Assembly: GCA_902595535.1 (NCBI GenBank)
Contig: CACJQI010000006.1
Coordinates: 16,303-80,302 of the forward strand
Direction: 5' to 3'
DNA from: an uncultured Pelagibacteraceae bacterium
GTDB taxonomy: Bacteria > Pseudomonadota > Alphaproteobacteria > Pelagibacterales > Pelagibacteraceae
Length of the DNA stretch: 64,000 nt
The notes below the pieces were generated by a model, which had not been told where the DNA came from, did no database searches, and saw nothing but the letters and a program-made list of their open reading frames with translations. The translations under genes and the position numbers were made by a program. Positions 1,908 to 9,899 of this stretch are shown piece by piece. Position 1 is the first letter of the stretch, and each line of letters opens with the position of its first letter.

Positions 1908-2435
1908 TTAATGTCCTGGAAATTCAATTAAATTTTCAACATTATAATTATTTTTAACTAAATTATCTGAGCCACCTAAATCAAATAAATTTATAACAAA
2001 AATAAATGCCGAAACTTTTCCACCAGATATTTCTATTAATTTAGCACCTGCTTCAGCTGTCCCTCCAGTTGCAATTAAATCATCAATAATTAAAACATTG
2101 TCTGTTTGATCAATAGAGTCTTTGTGAACCTCTATTGTAGCAGTGCCGTACTCTAGCTCAAAATCTACAGAATGCACATCTGCTGGAAGTTTATTTTTTT
2201 TTCTTAAGAGAATAAAAGGTTTTTTTAATATATAAGAAACAGCAGAGGCAAATACAAAACCTCTAGACTCAATTGCTGCAATTTTATTAAAATTAAATTT
2301 TTTTGATCGTTCGACTATCTGATTTATAGTTTCAGAAAATGCATTTTCATTCTTAATTAATGTAGTAATATCTCTAAATAAAATGCCTTTTTTAGGGTAA
2401 TCAGGAATTGATCTAATATAATCTTTTAAATTCAT
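1908..2435 (-). CDS. apt: Adenine phosphoribosyltransferase
   Basis: MNLKDYIRSIPDYPKKGILFRDITTL...; PRPP motif VLIIDDLIATGGTAEA. Confidence 0.95.
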   Translation of the reverse strand: MNLKDYIRSIPDYPKKGILFRDITTLIKNENAFSETINQIVERSKKFNFNKIAAIESRGFVFASAVSYILKKPFILLRKKNKLPADVHSVDFELEYGTATIEVHKDSIDQTDNVLIIDDLIATGGTAEAGAKLIEISGGKVSAFIFVINLFDLGGSDNLVKNNYNVENLIEFPGH

Positions 2436-2476
2436 AATACTTAATTATAAAAGTATGAATAAATATTTTTTTAAAT

Positions 2477-3349
2477 ATGACAACAAATAAATTAGCGATT
2501 ATTGGTGGAAGCGGCCTTTATGATGTTGAGGAATTTAAAGATAGAAAATTGCTTGATTTTGATACACCATGGGGAAAACCTTCAGATCAAATATTAAAAA
2601 CTAATTATAATAATAAGGAAATATATTTTTTACCTAGACATGGAAGAGGGCATTTTGTTTCTCCTTCAAATATAAATTTTAGAGCAAATATTGATGCTCT
2701 TAAACAATTAGGTGTCACAGATATTGTATCTGTTTCAGCTGTAGGTTCTTTAAAAGAAAACTTACCACCAGGTAAATTTGTTATTGTAGACCAATTTATT
2801 GATAGAACATTTTCAAGAACAAAAACTTTTTTTGATGATGAAATAGTCGCACACGTCTCTATGGCTCATCCAACTTCCAATGGTTTGATGAATGCTTGTG
2901 AAGATGCAATTAAGAAATCAAATATTGATTTTCAGAGAAATGGAACTTATGTTGTTATGGAAGGTCCACAATTTTCAACCTTAGCAGAATCAAATTTATA
3001 CAGATCTTGGAAAGCTGACGTAATTGGTATGACTAATATGCCAGAAGCAAAACTAGCAAGAGAAGCTGAAATAAGATATGCCTCAGTTTCAATGGTAACA
3101 GATTTTGACTGTTGGCATCCTGATCATGAAAGTGTTGATGTTCAACAAATAATTAAAGTTTTATTAAGCAATGCTGAAAATGCAAAAGTGATGATTAAAA
3201 ATTTAATTGATAATTTTGAAGAACATATTGATCCAAATGATCCAACAAATAATTGTTTAGATGTTGCAATTATTACAGCTCCAGAAAAAAGAACCAAAAA
3301 AACAATTGATAAACTTAAAACAATAGCAGGTAGAGTTCTATCTAAATGA
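2477..3349 (+). CDS. mtnP: S-methyl-5'-thioadenosine phosphorylase
   Basis: LAIIGGSGLYDVE, LPRHGRGHFVSPSNINFRANI, VVMEGPQFSTLAES, GMTNMPEAKLAREAEI. Confidence 0.95.
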   Translation: MTTNKLAIIGGSGLYDVEEFKDRKLLDFDTPWGKPSDQILKTNYNNKEIYFLPRHGRGHFVSPSNINFRANIDALKQLGVTDIVSVSAVGSLKENLPPGKFVIVDQFIDRTFSRTKTFFDDEIVAHVSMAHPTSNGLMNACEDAIKKSNIDFQRNGTYVVMEGPQFSTLAESNLYRSWKADVIGMTNMPEAKLAREAEIRYASVSMVTDFDCWHPDHESVDVQQIIKVLLSNAENAKVMIKNLIDNFEEHIDPNDPTNNCLDVAIITAPEKRTKKTIDKLKTIAGRVLSK

Positions 3350-4416
3350 AAATTCACAACAAAGAATACAAAACTATTTGGTATGAAGAAAATGTTGTCA
3401 AAATAATTGATCAAACAAAACTTCCACATCAATTTATAATTAAAAACTTAAAAAAAATTAAAGATGCAATTAATGCCATAAAAGTAATGGAAGTAAGGGG
3501 TGCCCCTTTAATTGGAGGAACTGCTGCTTATGGAATAGCTCTTGCTGTTAAGGAAAATAATGATTCTGAATTTATAAATAAAAGTGCAGAAGAACTAATT
3601 CAATCAAGACCTACAGCAATAAATTTGAAATGGGCAGTAGATCGTATGATGAATAGATTATCTGGAATTAATAGTGATCAAATTTTAGAAATTGCTTTAA
3701 AAGAAGCTAAAGAAATATGTGATGAAGATGAAAAATTCTGTGAAAATATTGGTATTAACGGATTAAAAATAATTGAAGAAATTTATAATAAAAAAAAAGA
3801 TACAGTTAATATATTAACACACTGTAATGCTGGTTGGCTTGCAACAATTAATTGGGGTACAGCAACTTCTCCAATATATCATGCTCACAAAAAAGGAATT
3901 CCAGTTCATGTTTGGGTAGATGAAACTAGACCAAGAAATCAAGGTGCAAATTTAACTTCCTTTGAATTAAATGAGGAAGAAATACCTAATACTATAATTA
4001 CTGATAACACAGGTGGAATTTTAATGCAAAGAGGTGAAGTGGATATGTGTATTGTAGGAACAGATAGAACTTTATCAAATGGAGATGTTTGTAATAAAAT
4101 TGGGACTTATCTAAAAGCATTAGCAGCTTATGACAATAACGTGCCTTTTTATGTAGCATTACCAAGCTCAACTATTGATTGGGAAATTAAAAAAGGCAAA
4201 GATATCCCAATTGAAGAGAGAAATTCAGAAGAGTTATCCCATGTATATGGTGTGGATGAAAATAATGAAATTAAAAAGGTTTTAATTTATCCAAAAAATA
4301 GCAAAGTAAAGAATCTTGCTTTTGATGTCACTCCAGCAAAGTATGTAACAGGTTTGATAACAGAAAAAGGTATTTCAGAGGCGTCTGCCGAAGGATTAAA
4401 AAAGTTATTTAAATAA
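3346..4416 (+). CDS. mtnA: S-methyl-5-thioribose-1-phosphate isomerase
   Basis: VMEVRGAPLIGGTAAYGIALA, THCNAGWLAT, VWVDETRPRNQGANLTSFEL, VGTDRTLSNGDVCNKIGTY; 4-nt overlap with mtnP. Confidence 0.95.
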   Translation: MKIHNKEYKTIWYEENVVKIIDQTKLPHQFIIKNLKKIKDAINAIKVMEVRGAPLIGGTAAYGIALAVKENNDSEFINKSAEELIQSRPTAINLKWAVDRMMNRLSGINSDQILEIALKEAKEICDEDEKFCENIGINGLKIIEEIYNKKKDTVNILTHCNAGWLATINWGTATSPIYHAHKKGIPVHVWVDETRPRNQGANLTSFELNEEEIPNTIITDNTGGILMQRGEVDMCIVGTDRTLSNGDVCNKIGTYLKALAAYDNNVPFYVALPSSTIDWEIKKGKDIPIEERNSEELSHVYGVDENNEIKKVLIYPKNSKVKNLAFDVTPAKYVTGLITEKGISEASAEGLKKLFK

Positions 4417-4417
4417 T

Positions 4418-6451
4418 TTATCTAAGCGAAGCAGCAATGTTTCCACCATCAACTGTTAATATTGCTCCAGTAGTTTTTTTTGAAACTGCTAAATGAAAAA
4501 ATGCTTTTGCTACATCTTCTGCTTTTACTTCGTTTAAAAGTAAATTTCCCCTCATATATTCATCTGCAGAAACTTCTCTAGCTTTAGCTCTAGATTTGAT
4601 CATTCCTTCGTTTAACAGACCACTTCTTATTCTGTCTGCATTTACTCCATTTGATCTTATTCCAAGAGAACCATAATCTACCGCGTATTGTTTGCATAAA
4701 TTCAACAATGCTGACTTAGGTAATCCGTAAGGTCCAAAATTTTTTCCAGGATTTACTGATTGTTTTGAAATATTAAATAACAAGCAGCCCTCGATATTTT
4801 GTTTTTTCATTATTTTAATTGCTTCTGAAGCACAATTTTGATGAGAAAAAAAATTATCTTCAAAACTTTGTCTTAAAATTTTATCATCTACTTCTGCTAT
4901 AGATCCACCAATAGCTGTTCCGGCATTAGATATTAGAATATCAATTCCACCATAAGTTTCTGTAATAGTTTTGAAAGCTTTTTTAACACTATTTTTATTC
5001 GTTACATCGCAATACAAACAAAGACCTTTAACTTTTGATTTCATTTCTTTTACTTTTTGAAAATTATAATCAAGCAAAACTATTTCAGCTCCATAATTTT
5101 TGAACAGTTTGTAAGTAGCAGAACCAATCGCTCCAAAACTTCCAGTTATAACAACAACATTACCTTGTAGGTCCTTTTTAGCTTTTTTAATTTTAGCTTG
5201 TTCTAAAGACCAGTATTCAACATCAAATAAATCTTTTTCAGGTATAAACTTATATTTTGTAGTTTCCTCAACAGATGAAATAACTCTAGCATTGGTTTCT
5301 GTTAAATCTCCAGCAATTTTAGCAGCACTCAAACTATCTCCAACACTAAATAGCCCCACATTTTGAACCAATATCACTCTTGGAGAAGTATCTAACATTG
5401 TTTTTTTGCCTTTTACTTTCTTTCTATTTGTATCAAAATATTTGATATATTTTTTTCTATAATCTTTAAAACACTTTTCGGCTAACTTCTTAAAATCTCT
5501 TAAGTTAGTATTTGGTTTTGGTGTGATAACTAATGGAAATGGTTTTACCCTTATAACATGATCAGGTGTGGCAGTACCAAGACCAGTATATCTTCTGACT
5601 TCCTTACCATTAATAAAGTAATCTAAAATTTTATTAGACCTATAATTTACTATATACTTTAGACTTTTAGTTTCAGACAATAATCCTCTTAGTATTGGAG
5701 AGATTTCATGTGGTTTAAATGAGTTATTAAATTTTTTTATCTGTTTTATTTTTTTCCTTTTAATTTTTTTGACTGCTTTTTCGGCAATTGAAACATATTT
5801 GATCATTAAGTCGTAAGATTTTTTAGCATCATTATCAAAAGTAAAAATCCCATGATTTAACAGAATTAAACAATTGATATTGGGATTTTTGGAATAAACC
5901 TCATTAATTTTTTGAGCCAAACCAAAACCAGGCATTACATAAGGCACAATACTAACTTTAGAGCCAAATATTTTTTTACAAAAATCTTTACCATTTGGTC
6001 TATTCGTAACATTCATAATCGCATCTGAATGAGTGTGATCTACAAACTTGAATGGCAAAAAAGCATGTAAAAAAGTTTCTACAGAAGGGTTAGGAGATTT
6101 GATGTCAATCAAATTTCTTTTTTGAAATGCAACCATATCTTCATCACTTAAATATTTTTTATTTTTTAGAGAGAGCAATGGATTTAATTTTACTGCTGGT
6201 AGACCCTCTGGCTCAATTTCAGCCATATCCCATCCACTTCCCTTAACGCATAGAACATCGTAACTTTTACCATCGATATCTTTAACGGATGTTTTTACAG
6301 AAGTATTTCCACCACCATGAAGAACTAATTCACTATTTCTTCCTAATAACCTAGTTGTATAAACTCTTAAAGCCATATCTCTTGAATGACCAAGTTTTTG
6401 ATACTTTTTTATATATTTTTTTGCTTCTAAATTGGACCAATTGTTTTTCAC
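4418..6451 (-). CDS. Fused class II aldolase / short-chain dehydrogenase (RhaD-SDR-like bifunctional protein)
   Basis: Aldolase domain: HGGGNTSVK, PSVETFLHAFLPFKFVDHTHSDA, LLNHGIFTFD. SDR domain: VVVITGSFGAIGSATYKLF, ISNAGTA, YGLPK (YxxxK). Confidence 0.9.
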   Translation of the reverse strand: MKNNWSNLEAKKYIKKYQKLGHSRDMALRVYTTRLLGRNSELVLHGGGNTSVKTSVKDIDGKSYDVLCVKGSGWDMAEIEPEGLPAVKLNPLLSLKNKKYLSDEDMVAFQKRNLIDIKSPNPSVETFLHAFLPFKFVDHTHSDAIMNVTNRPNGKDFCKKIFGSKVSIVPYVMPGFGLAQKINEVYSKNPNINCLILLNHGIFTFDNDAKKSYDLMIKYVSIAEKAVKKIKRKKIKQIKKFNNSFKPHEISPILRGLLSETKSLKYIVNYRSNKILDYFINGKEVRRYTGLGTATPDHVIRVKPFPLVITPKPNTNLRDFKKLAEKCFKDYRKKYIKYFDTNRKKVKGKKTMLDTSPRVILVQNVGLFSVGDSLSAAKIAGDLTETNARVISSVEETTKYKFIPEKDLFDVEYWSLEQAKIKKAKKDLQGNVVVITGSFGAIGSATYKLFKNYGAEIVLLDYNFQKVKEMKSKVKGLCLYCDVTNKNSVKKAFKTITETYGGIDILISNAGTAIGGSIAEVDDKILRQSFEDNFFSHQNCASEAIKIMKKQNIEGCLLFNISKQSVNPGKNFGPYGLPKSALLNLCKQYAVDYGSLGIRSNGVNADRIRSGLLNEGMIKSRAKAREVSADEYMRGNLLLNEVKAEDVAKAFFHLAVSKKTTGAILTVDGGNIAASLR

Positions 6452-6536
6452 AGCTACAACCTCAGCGAAGTATTACAATAGTTTTTTGTTTGAAAGAAGC
6501 AAAAAATTTGATTAGTAAGGTTTATAAAGCTTATTT

Positions 6537-7577
6537 ATGACAAAAGTTGGAGAACATATTACATTAGACATAATTGGTACTACAAAAGACTATGATCCAT
6601 CTATATTTGAAAAAGTAATTTATGAAATTGCAAAAGTTGCAAAAGTAAAAATTCTAAATATATCTAAATATAAATTTGAACCTCAAGGTTTCACAATTCT
6701 TGCTTTATTAGCTGAAAGCCATATCAGTTTTCATACTTTTCCAGAAAAAGGAATTATTAGTTTTGATTTTTTTACTTGTGGTAAGGTCAATCCATCAATC
6801 GCAATTGAAATTATTAAAAAAGAATTTGAACACAAAAGAATTGTTAAAAAAGAATTCAATAGGGACACCAAATCTCTTTATCATGATATTTACAGTTCAT
6901 CGGGATTACAAAAATCTTATGTTGTAAACGATGTCCTAGAGGATTTTAAGTCAAAAGCGGGTCAACACATTGAAATTTTAGATCTAGAACAATTTGGAAA
7001 ATCTTTATTTATTGATGGAGAAATTCAAGTAGCTACTACTGACGAACACTTGTATAGTTCAACTTTTGTAGGCGCGGGATTAAATTTAAATCAACAAATT
7101 GAAAGAGCTGCTATTATTGGTGGTGGAGACGGTGGTGTTGCAAGAGAATGTATATCAAAAAATTTTAGTTTTATAGATTGGTATGAACTAGATCCTGAAG
7201 TTGTTAATGTTTGCAACAAACATCTTGGAGATATAGGAAAAAAAGCTACTGAAAAAAATTCTGTTAAATGTGTATGGGGTGATGCATTTGAAAGTATTAA
7301 ATCAACAAAAGATGATACTTATGATCATATATTTGTTGATCTTAATGACGATCAATTTTGTATTGATCTTGCAGCAAAAAATATGGATTCAATGATTAGA
7401 ATTTTAAAACCGAAAGGTGTGATTACAGCACAAGTAGGAAGTCAGGATAAAAAACCTAGACAGGTTGATAATTGGCTAAATGTATTTAATCACTTTTTTG
7501 GAAACACAAAATTATCCAGAGTTTATATCCCTAGTTTTGATTGTTCTTGGAACTTTTCTTCATCAATTAATCATTAA
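6537..7577 (+). CDS. Fused S-adenosylmethionine decarboxylase (SpeD) / spermidine synthase-like (SpeE) protein
   Basis: N-term AESHISFHTFPE (pyruvoyl-serine site) and TCGKVNPS; C-term AAIIGGGDGGVARECI, FIDGEIQVATTDEHLY. Confidence 0.9.
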   Translation: MTKVGEHITLDIIGTTKDYDPSIFEKVIYEIAKVAKVKILNISKYKFEPQGFTILALLAESHISFHTFPEKGIISFDFFTCGKVNPSIAIEIIKKEFEHKRIVKKEFNRDTKSLYHDIYSSSGLQKSYVVNDVLEDFKSKAGQHIEILDLEQFGKSLFIDGEIQVATTDEHLYSSTFVGAGLNLNQQIERAAIIGGGDGGVARECISKNFSFIDWYELDPEVVNVCNKHLGDIGKKATEKNSVKCVWGDAFESIKSTKDDTYDHIFVDLNDDQFCIDLAAKNMDSMIRILKPKGVITAQVGSQDKKPRQVDNWLNVFNHFFGNTKLSRVYIPSFDCSWNFSSSINH

Positions 7578-7636: not shown

Positions 7637-8488
7637 ATGAATATATTCAAAAAAACTATTTTAACAGTTCTTGCTTCTTTATTGATTATCGGAAATGTTT
7701 ACGCTGATAAAATAAGAATCGGAACTGAAGGCGCTTATCCACCATGGAACTCTAAAGATGCATCTGGAAATCTTATCGGTTTTGAAGTGGAACTAGCTCA
7801 AGAGCTTTGTAAAATCATGAAACATGAATGTACAATAGTTGAACAAGATTGGGATGGGATGATTCCAGCTTTATTGATGAGAAAATTTGATGCGATTATG
7901 GCAGGTATGTCAATTACTGCGGAAAGACAAAAAACAATTACTTTTTCTCAAGGTTATGCGACAGAGCCTGCTACCCTTGCTGTAATGAAAGGATCAAGTC
8001 TTGAAGGTATGGACACACCTGCAGCAATAAATTTAGACAGAAGTTCTTCAGATGTTAAAAAAGCACTAAAAACAATCACCGCTTCTTTATCTGGTAAAAC
8101 TGTTTGTACGCAAACTGGAACAATTCACCAAAACTTTTTAGAGTCTGGTGATGTGGGAAGTGTAAATGTTAGAACTTACAAGACTCAAGATGAAGTTAAC
8201 TTAGATCTAACATCTGGAAGATGTGATGTGGCTTTAGCTGCAAAAGCTTCATTTATAGAATATGCTGAAGCATCTGGAAAAGCAGTTGTTACTGTTGGAC
8301 CTAATTTATCTGGTGGTGCTTTTGGAGGCGGTGTTGGTGTCGGTATCAGACAAGGTGGAGATGATGCGATTGGTAAAAGAGACGCTAAACTTCTAAAAGA
8401 CTTTAACAAGGCAATTGATAAAGCTAGAAAAAAAGGAATTATTAGTAAACTAGCTATCAAATGGTTTAATGACGACGTTTCTATGTAA
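7637..8488 (+). CDS. Amino-acid ABC transporter substrate-binding protein (Lys/Arg/Orn-like)
   Basis: Signal peptide then KIRIGTEGAYPPWNSKDASGNLIGFEVELAQELCKIM..., WDGMIPALLMRKFDAIMAGMSIT. Confidence 0.9.
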   Translation: MNIFKKTILTVLASLLIIGNVYADKIRIGTEGAYPPWNSKDASGNLIGFEVELAQELCKIMKHECTIVEQDWDGMIPALLMRKFDAIMAGMSITAERQKTITFSQGYATEPATLAVMKGSSLEGMDTPAAINLDRSSSDVKKALKTITASLSGKTVCTQTGTIHQNFLESGDVGSVNVRTYKTQDEVNLDLTSGRCDVALAAKASFIEYAEASGKAVVTVGPNLSGGAFGGGVGVGIRQGGDDAIGKRDAKLLKDFNKAIDKARKKGIISKLAIKWFNDDVSM

Positions 8489-8501
8489 TTAATTTCAGAT
8501 T

Positions 8502-8526
8502 TGGCGACTATAATATATAGTCGCCA
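8502..8526 (+). promoter_or_regulatory. Perfect intercistronic hairpin between SBP and permease genes
   Basis: TGGCGACTAT-aatat-ATAGTCGCCA, 10-bp stem, 5-nt loop, no T tract. Confidence 0.75.
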
Positions 8527-8532
8527 GTCTAT

Positions 8533-9225
8533 ATGGAACTTCTAGCATTTGGCAAAACAGGTTGGGGAGATGAATTATTTTATGCAACCCTCATGACTAT
8601 AGCTGTATCAATTGCAGCGATGTTAGTTGGTTTTTTATTTGCTCTTATTTTTACTCCACTCAAATTATCAAAATATAAATCTTTAAATTTAATTGGAAAT
8701 TTTTACACAACAGTTATCCGTGGTGTCCCTGAGCTTTTAGTAATTTACCTTTTATTTTTTGGCGGAAGTGGTGCAATAATGTATGTGGCATCAATATTTG
8801 GATATTTTGAGTATATCGAGATAAATGCATTTATTACAGGTGCAATGGCAATTGGAATAATTTCGGGAGCTTATTCAACAGAAGTTTTTCGTGGGGCTAT
8901 TCAATCCATAGACAAAGGACAGTTTGAAGCTGCTAAGGTTTTAGGAGTAAGTAAATTTGCACAATTTTATAAGATAATTTTACCTCAAATGTTAAGACTT
9001 GCTATTCCAAACTTGAGTAATGTTTGGCAAATAACTTTAAAAGATACATCATTAATTTCAGTTACTGGATTGGTTGAAATTATGAGACAATCTTATATTG
9101 CAGCAGGCTCTACAAGAGATCCATTATTCTTTTACTCATTTGCTGCCGTTTTATATTTATTGCTAACGTATTTAAGCATGAAATTAATTAATAGATTAGA
9201 AGCTAGATATAGTAGGGGTTATTAA
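8533..9225 (+). CDS. Amino-acid ABC transporter permease (HisM/QM family)
   Basis: EAA-loop region (FEAAKVLGVSKFAQFYKIILPQMLRLAIP) and hydrophobic segments. Confidence 0.9.
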   Translation: MELLAFGKTGWGDELFYATLMTIAVSIAAMLVGFLFALIFTPLKLSKYKSLNLIGNFYTTVIRGVPELLVIYLLFFGGSGAIMYVASIFGYFEYIEINAFITGAMAIGIISGAYSTEVFRGAIQSIDKGQFEAAKVLGVSKFAQFYKIILPQMLRLAIPNLSNVWQITLKDTSLISVTGLVEIMRQSYIAAGSTRDPLFFYSFAAVLYLLLTYLSMKLINRLEARYSRGY

Positions 9226-9899
9226 TGGATTTTGAATTAATGTTCTCTAGCTTCCCCAAATTGTTGGGCGCAACTGTCGTTACTTTAAAACTTTTATCAG
9301 CCTCACTATTTTTTGGTTTATTTATTGGATTATTGTTTGCAATTTTAAGATTAAATAAAAATATATTTATTAATAAATTTGCTTATGTTTATTCTTATGT
9401 GTTTAGAGGAACACCTTTACTAGTTCAGATATTTATTATTTATTTTGGTTTAGGGCAAATTGAATACTTAAGATCAACATTTTTGTGGGTTATTTTAAAA
9501 GAACCTTATTGGTGTGCAATTATAGCTTTCACTTTAAATACAGGTGCCTACACATCAGAGATACTTCGATCAGCATTTCAAACAATCAAACCAGGTATTA
9601 TAGAAGCTGGTAAAAGTTTAGGAATTTCAAACAAAATTATCTTTTACAAAATCCAAATTCCAATAGCTATTAGACAATCTCTTCCTGCTTATGGAAATGA
9701 AATAATATTAATGATGAAGGGAACTTCATTGGCAAGTACAGTTACCCTAATGGATTTAACTGGTGTCGCTAAATATATTATTTCAACAACCTTTAAACCA
9801 ATAGAAGTATTTATTGTTGCTGGTGGAATTTATCTTTTTATGACTTTTGTCATTCATAACGTTATTAAATACTTGGAGAAAAAATATAGTTTTCAATAA
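9225..9899 (+). CDS. Amino-acid ABC transporter permease
   Basis: FRGTPLLVQIFIIYFGL; IIEAGKSLGISNKIIFYKIQIPIAIRQSLP; overlaps previous stop. Confidence 0.9.
   Translation: MDFELMFSSFPKLLGATVVTLKLLSASLFFGLFIGLLFAILRLNKNIFINKFAYVYSYVFRGTPLLVQIFIIYFGLGQIEYLRSTFLWVILKEPYWCAIIAFTLNTGAYTSEILRSAFQTIKPGIIEAGKSLGISNKIIFYKIQIPIAIRQSLPAYGNEIILMMKGTSLASTVTLMDLTGVAKYIISTTFKPIEVFIVAGGIYLFMTFVIHNVIKYLEKKYSFQ

Follow-up and report, generated by a model that had tools for sequence, protein, structure and literature searches.

The locus described here raises the question of how a bacterium of the Pelagibacteraceae (SAR11) disposes of methylthioadenosine (MTA), the toxic by-product of polyamine synthesis, when the genes that initiate MTA degradation lie beside a gene coding a class II aldolase fused to a short-chain dehydrogenase (SDR). 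The window, i.e., the whole stretch of DNA that was analysed, has 64,000 nucleotides and belongs to a genome of 1.40 Mb that is 95.7% complete in 32 contigs.

Organization of the locus

The features of the locus, with their positions in the window, are:

1908..2435, minus strand: apt, adenine phosphoribosyltransferase (TIGR01090, 199.7 bits, cut-off 185.85)
2477..3349, plus strand: mtnP, S-methyl-5'-thioadenosine phosphorylase (above cut-off for TIGR01694, 306 bits, and for NF006492, 443 bits)
3346..4416, plus strand: mtnA, 5-methylthioribose-1-phosphate isomerase (TIGR00512, 425 bits, cut-off 279)
4418..6451, minus strand: class II aldolase::SDR fusion of 677 aa, hereafter FUS (NF006192, 886 bits, cut-off 639)
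5780..6364, minus strand: FUS aldolase domain, residues 30-224 (PF00596)
4442..5161, minus strand: FUS SDR domain, residues 431-670 (PF00106/PF13561)
6537..7577, plus strand: speD::speE fusion (PF02675 and PF01564)

The mtnP and mtnA genes overlap by 4 bp on the same strand and apt is divergent from this pair. FUS is convergent with mtnA (gap of 1 bp) and divergent from speD::speE (gap of 85 bp). Rather than forming a single operon, the locus comprises several transcription units packed closely together. SpeD::SpeE combines AdoMet decarboxylase and aminopropyltransferase and is the source of MTA. MtnP converts MTA and phosphate to adenine and 5-methylthioribose-1-phosphate (MTR-1-P), or 5'-deoxyadenosine to adenine and 5-deoxyribose-1-phosphate, and Apt recovers the adenine. 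The window MtnA is 57% identical to MtnA of E. coli S88, which is encoded in an mtnK-mtnA-ald2 operon. The closest homologs of FUS, with at most 93% identity, are found in single-cell genomes labelled Pelagibacteraceae (SAR11).

The sequence-only reading had proposed this five-gene locus, with adenine salvage by Apt; its coordinates and families were confirmed, including apt, which adjoins mtnP in nearly all SAR11 relatives examined and in many other Alphaproteobacteria. The speD::speE gene adjoins FUS, or a stand-alone aldolase gene, in nearly all SAR11 loci examined. Since the association is conserved across many genera, the grouping is not due to chance.

A lysine/arginine/ornithine-type ABC transporter, with a binding protein and two permeases (window 7637-9899), is positioned 3' of speD::speE in nearly all SAR11 loci examined and may take up a polyamine precursor. 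The presence of a conserved regulatory RNA in the window was rejected, as the Rfam search of the window yielded zero matches.

Family, residues and fold of the fusion protein

FUS matches NF006192 (PRK08324.1-6) along its full length (residues 1-677), above the family cut-off. The family is named 'bifunctional aldolase/short-chain dehydrogenase' and NCBI assigns it no substrate. Its domain order is identical to that of RhaEW (YuxG; TIGR02632/NF006189), the L-rhamnulose-1-phosphate aldolase/L-lactaldehyde dehydrogenase, to which FUS is 31-32% identical across the full length. FUS scores 441 bits against TIGR02632, below the cut-off of 567.75 that is passed by two lower-scoring relatives, L144 and L145 (853 and 1027 bits). 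A tree of 125 sequences separates the window-type clade from three RhaEW sequences by a long, fully supported branch.

Residues Glu125, His139, His141 and His200 of the aldolase domain and Asp461, Asn533, Ser562, Tyr575 and Lys579 of the SDR domain are invariant in all 122 members of the clade. By alignment with FucA, we take Glu125 to be the catalytic Glu of that enzyme and the three histidines its metal ligands. The position of Asp461 at the end of beta2 points to NAD over NADP, an inference from sequence alone. Among 11 lower-scoring relatives, nine carry Asp at position 125 and Leu at 533 and the remaining two carry Glu and Asn. The residue tally gave counts only; the latter two are inferred to be probably L238 and L239, a separate type.

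The AlphaFold model of FUS (pLDDT 88, pTM 0.86) has an aldolase domain matching the class II aldolase 3m4r with a TM-score of 0.92; the nearest folds to its SDR domain are NAD-dependent SDRs, e.g., 8y46. BLAST of FUS against Ald2 gave no significant match. The FUS aldolase is a class II branch other than Ald2/DrdA, fused to an SDR. No assay of any enzyme of the FUS clade was found in the literature searched.

L238 (3674-6917) and L239 (5177-7132) code a third type of aldolase::SDR fusion of ~651 aa, with a low score. It adjoins kinase-like and HAD-like genes (named by eye), and the genomes also carry FUS.

Exchange at one slot among SAR11 relatives

The relatives set comprised 101 genomes, including that of the window, mostly SAGs and MAGs. 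Of these, 45 code MtnA and 9 code FUS; a stand-alone class II aldolase, 210-221 aa long, is present in 36. FUS and the stand-alone aldolase were found together in none of the 101 genomes. All genomes of the set that have FUS also have mtnA, and only two mtnA genomes, both incomplete, have neither FUS nor the aldolase. Most FUS-less genomes examined have the order mtnP-mtnA-aldolase-speDE in one direction; in the genomes with FUS, the place adjoining speDE is taken by FUS instead of the stand-alone aldolase. The slot is split from mtnA by an island in five genomes (G004, G023, G031, G047 and G054). G004 and G054 have the same island, with the same BKACE-like gene bordering a slot next to speDE that holds the aldolase in one genome and FUS in the other. 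The mtnA tree implies six changes between the two states, at least four of them forced by well-supported branches, and the speDE tree implies four, two of them forced. The slot has been swapped repeatedly within SAR11. Such repeated exchange at one position is expected if FUS and the stand-alone aldolase are functionally equivalent. The latter is 43% identical to FucA and 38% to Ald2 of E. coli, so the case for calling it Ald2 comes from its position behind mtnP-mtnA. Note that the Ald2 sequence compared was from E. coli S88 and that those of R. rubrum and R. palustris were left out.

In SAR11, the junction between mtnA and the aldolase gene is a hotspot for insertions (L012, L013, L015, L016, L063, L070). 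In some genomes, inserts located precisely at this point are ~2-3 kb long, with a TrpB-like gene and another conserved gene, or 7-14 kb long, with sulfatase-, TRAP-, FAH-, VOC-, monooxygenase- and BKACE-like genes (named by eye).

Distribution and gene context in Alphaproteobacteria

Co-occurrence was assessed in 289 genomes spread across the class Alphaproteobacteria, mostly SAGs and MAGs, in which members of the FUS clade were called by scores well above those of the RhaEW group. The mtnA gene is present in 47 of the 50 genomes with a FUS-clade protein versus 82 of the 239 others (Fisher p 7e-16). The 129 genomes with mtnA include 47 with FUS and 52 with a stand-alone aldolase adjacent to mtnA, and none with both (p 6e-15). 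Both tests ignore phylogeny. The sequence-only reading had suggested a survey of this kind, covering co-occurrence with mtnP/mtnA and anti-correlation with mtnBCD. The latter is not strict: of the 289 genomes, just a dozen or so have acireductone dioxygenase (ARD) with a convincing score, and six of them (G133, G178, G199, G212, G262 and G360) also carry FUS, which is thus not strictly exclusive of full methionine salvage.

The gene context outside SAR11 was read in 93 FUS-clade loci, a few of which are present in two collections and were counted twice. In 34 loci, FUS follows mtnA or mtnP immediately and in the same orientation, and in 18 more these genes are found elsewhere in the locus, adding up to 52 of 93. 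Eight loci are too short to judge. In the remaining 33, from Reyranella/Enhydrobacter, Gemmatimonadota, Nitrospinaceae and others, neither mtnA nor mtnP was found in the locus DNA examined. None of the 11 lower-scoring relatives has mtnA within 6 kb. In G065, from another family of the same order, the genes form an overlapping apt-mtnP-mtnA-FUS operon. An agmatine-deiminase-like gene lies directly 3' of FUS in this genome (L019:11244-12383), which is another tie to polyamines.

The FUS gene of Mesorhizobium, Nitratireductor and Chelativorans is grouped with a regulator, an rbs-type ABC transporter, a kinase and mtnA. The Phyllobacteriaceae kinase belongs to the APH family and shares 44% identity with MtnK of E. 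coli; the regulator, which has a sugar-binding domain, is 30% identical to E. coli YjhU/MtnR, the repressor of the E. coli DHAP shunt (PMC12632272). Judged by gene content, this cluster appears to be a complete set for uptake and use of methylthioribose or 5-deoxyribose. The arrangement of regulator, FUS, ABC transporter, MtnK-like kinase and mtnA is seen at L219:6921-17358 and also in L213, L216, L217, L222, L223 and L228.

The FUS clade is probably not confined to MTA, because G130, a genome of 1.4 Mb that is 99% complete and has no mtnA, codes a member (L128:7690-14605) whose neighbours are an FGGY gene of the xylulokinase type and, identified by eye, genes resembling gpsA and that of an ABC transporter ATPase. 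This protein likely acts on a different substrate, and at least some members of the clade may use other ketose-1-phosphates.

A conserved position of the FUS-clade gene beside a gene for a TauD-family dioxygenase, away from mtnA, is observed in Reyranella/Enhydrobacter (L124, L183, L191-L201).

Other routes in the window's genome

The absence of mtnBCD-type genes from the window, put forward by the sequence-only reading, held and extends to the genome for ARD and an mtnB-type aldolase; MtnC was not covered. None of the 101 genomes in the relatives set has ARD (PF03079), none of the 18 genomes searched has the RuBisCO-like protein (PF00016), and no mtnB-type aldolase was detected by the PF00596 search of the window's genome. 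Methionine salvage through MtnBCD or through a RuBisCO-like protein was rejected on the lack of ARD and RuBisCO-like genes. The PF00596 search found only two proteins, FUS and C1:91376. The latter is of the PRK07490 type, with genes for BKACE, a thioesterase, TauD and choline dehydrogenase around it; it was rejected as an alternative aldolase for its lack of the catalytic Glu and its unrelated catabolic neighbours.

The SAR11 genomes tested have one FGGY kinase or none. The window's genome has one, whose homolog read in G027 is the glycerol kinase GlpK, and this sole copy is likely a glycerol kinase too. In G065, FUS is present without any FGGY kinase. No source of rhamnulose-1-P or fuculose-1-P is evident because the only FGGY kinase looks like a glycerol kinase; rhamnose isomerase was outside the search. 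Radical SAM proteins were found in 18 of 18 genomes tested, with six matches in the window's genome.

Proposed pathway and comparison with known systems

In Rhodospirillum rubrum and Rhodopseudomonas palustris, MtnP, MtnA and Ald2 turn MTA into DHAP and 2-(methylthio)acetaldehyde, from which a 'putative alcohol dehydrogenase' yields 2-(methylthio)ethanol (PMC5893883). The same shunt processes 5'-deoxyadenosine in E. coli (PMC10986504), and the DrdA and Ald2 routes accept substrates of both the MTRu-1-P and the 5-deoxyribulose-1-P type (PMC6079011, PMC10986504).

FUS is very likely a fused DHAP-shunt enzyme that carries out the last two steps of MTA disposal in one protein. Gene content, slot replacement, co-occurrence, operons and conserved catalytic residues are shown; substrates, redox direction and channelling are inferred, without biochemistry. 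This role is favoured because of the conserved neighbourhood, the replacement at the slot, the co-occurrence with mtnA and the lack of mtnD, of RuBisCO-like genes and of any FGGY kinase other than one resembling glycerol kinase. In the proposed pathway, MTA released by SpeD::SpeE would be phosphorolysed by MtnP to MTR-1-P and adenine, the latter salvaged by Apt, and MtnA would isomerise MTR-1-P to MTRu-1-P. The FUS aldolase domain would cleave MTRu-1-P to DHAP and 2-(methylthio)acetaldehyde, and the SDR domain would remove the aldehyde with NAD(H), giving (methylthio)acetate in preference to 2-(methylthio)ethanol by RhaEW precedent. The same enzymes would handle 5'-deoxyadenosine, with DHAP and acetate or ethanol as products. 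The physiological substrate may thus include 5-deoxyribulose-1-P besides MTRu-1-P.

If the aldolase assignment is correct, oxidation of the aldehyde to (methylthio)acetate is somewhat the better supported outcome, because RhaEW is the one fusion with this architecture to have been characterised, and the purified C. aurantiacus enzyme depends on NAD+, produces lactate and is inactive with NADH (PMC3870299). A bolder reading, which we hold to be slightly less likely than not, is that throughout the class NF006192 proteins complete an oxidative DHAP shunt as a single fused enzyme, converting MTRu-1-P (and 5-deoxyribulose-1-P) to DHAP and (methylthio)acetate (or acetate) and trading places repeatedly with Ald2-type aldolases in SAR11 and other Alphaproteobacteria.

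The proposal of the sequence-only reading that the fusion performs both last steps of the shunt is supported by the slot, co-occurrence and operon evidence. Its single substrate, MTRu-1-P, is amended to admit 5-deoxyribulose-1-P, and reduction by an alcohol dehydrogenase-type activity is not established. Among the refutations it had named, those checkable by sequence were not met: the neighbourhood is conserved and no full mtnBCD pathway was seen. Its remark that no fused enzyme was known in MTA recycling also held, no paper linking the fusion to MTA having been found in the literature searched.

The locus shares with the DHAP shunt of R. rubrum, R. palustris and E. coli ATCC 25922 (MtnP or MtnN/MtnK, MtnA, Ald2) the upstream enzymes, a class II aldolase step directly after MtnA, the dispensability of mtnBCD and, as inferred, DHAP as carbon product. 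It meets the presence of MtnP (or a nucleosidase plus MtnK) with MtnA, an mtnA-linked class II aldolase with the catalytic Glu and His ligands, and the absence of downstream salvage enzymes as far as ARD, the RuBisCO-like protein and the mtnB-type aldolase are concerned. It does not meet homology to single-domain Ald2/DrdA, a distant aldolase::SDR standing in place of the stand-alone Ald2, and its last product may be an acid instead of an alcohol. The locus is described as a variant working like the DHAP shunt, not a canonical one, because the FUS aldolase is no Ald2 homolog. The 5-deoxyribose salvage cluster of Bacillus thuringiensis (DrdK, DrdI, DrdA) likewise combines a kinase or phosphorylase, an isomerase and a class II aldolase to give DHAP and an aldehyde, but DrdA is a single-domain FucA-type protein without a fused dehydrogenase. 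Membership of FUS in NF006192 is met, and the assignment to MTA/5'-deoxyadenosine is newly proposed.

If true, the assignment would explain what a widespread family of proteins, named without substrate in databases, does, and would provide the dehydrogenase that is merely 'putative' in the published shunt. SAR11, among the most abundant bacteria of the ocean, would then discard the methylthio group of MTA as a small organic sulfur compound, without recycling methionine. Should the SDR domain oxidise, (methylthio)acetate is a predicted excreted sulfur metabolite.

Alternative explanations

The strongest alternative concerns only the second step, namely that the fate of (methylthio)acetaldehyde in the SDR domain is reduction to 2-(methylthio)ethanol, the direction given in the sequence-only reading. 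Granted the aldolase assignment, we rate it somewhat behind oxidation. This alcohol is the product observed in R. palustris and E. coli, where the alcohol dehydrogenase is unidentified (PMC5893883, PMC10986504), and FUS keeps the Asn-Ser-Tyr-Lys set of ordinary SDRs. Reduction cannot be excluded because that Asn is absent from most RhaEW. Against it stand the NAD+-dependent, lactate-forming C. aurantiacus RhaEW, inactive with NADH (PMC3870299), and Asp461, which suggests NAD and not NADP.

It is also possible that 5-deoxyribulose-1-P derived from the 5'-deoxyadenosine of radical SAM enzymes is the main substrate and MTA a secondary one. The use of both substrates by the DrdA/Ald2 routes (PMC6079011, PMC10986504) and the radical SAM proteins of all 18 genomes tested speak in its favour. 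However, the cluster adjoins the MTA-making speD::speE in SAR11 and the agmatine-deiminase-like gene in G065, and the MtnP sequence belongs with MTA phosphorylases.

Use of another ketose-1-phosphate, e.g., supplied by an FGGY kinase, with the mtn linkage reflecting general clustering of sugar-phosphate genes, is unlikely. It is supported by the G130 context without mtnA and by the mtn-unlinked members of Reyranella, Gemmatimonadota and Nitrospinaceae, but leaves unexplained both the mutual exclusion of FUS and the mtnA-adjacent aldolase and the presence of mtnA in 47 of 50 genomes.

That FUS is a RhaEW-type enzyme only incidentally adjacent to mtnA, as its architecture, His ligands, Ser-Tyr-Lys, ~31% identity and RhaEW's standing as sole characterised fusion of this architecture (PMC3870299) might suggest, is very unlikely, and this identity was rejected on model cut-offs (not met by FUS, exceeded by genuine RhaEW loci), tree (separate clades), residues (Glu125/Asn533 in 122/122 members, Asp/Leu in 9/11 lower-scoring relatives) and context (mtnA/mtnP and not rhamnose genes as neighbours, 0/11 of those relatives near mtnA, and at most one FGGY kinase in SAR11, read as glycerol kinase, with none in G065, rhamnose isomerase lying outside the search).

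As a separate observation, L144:6100-10726, from a genome of 1.4 Mb, carries a fusion of the RhaEW type beside an FMN L-lactate dehydrogenase-like gene, consistent with a lactate product.
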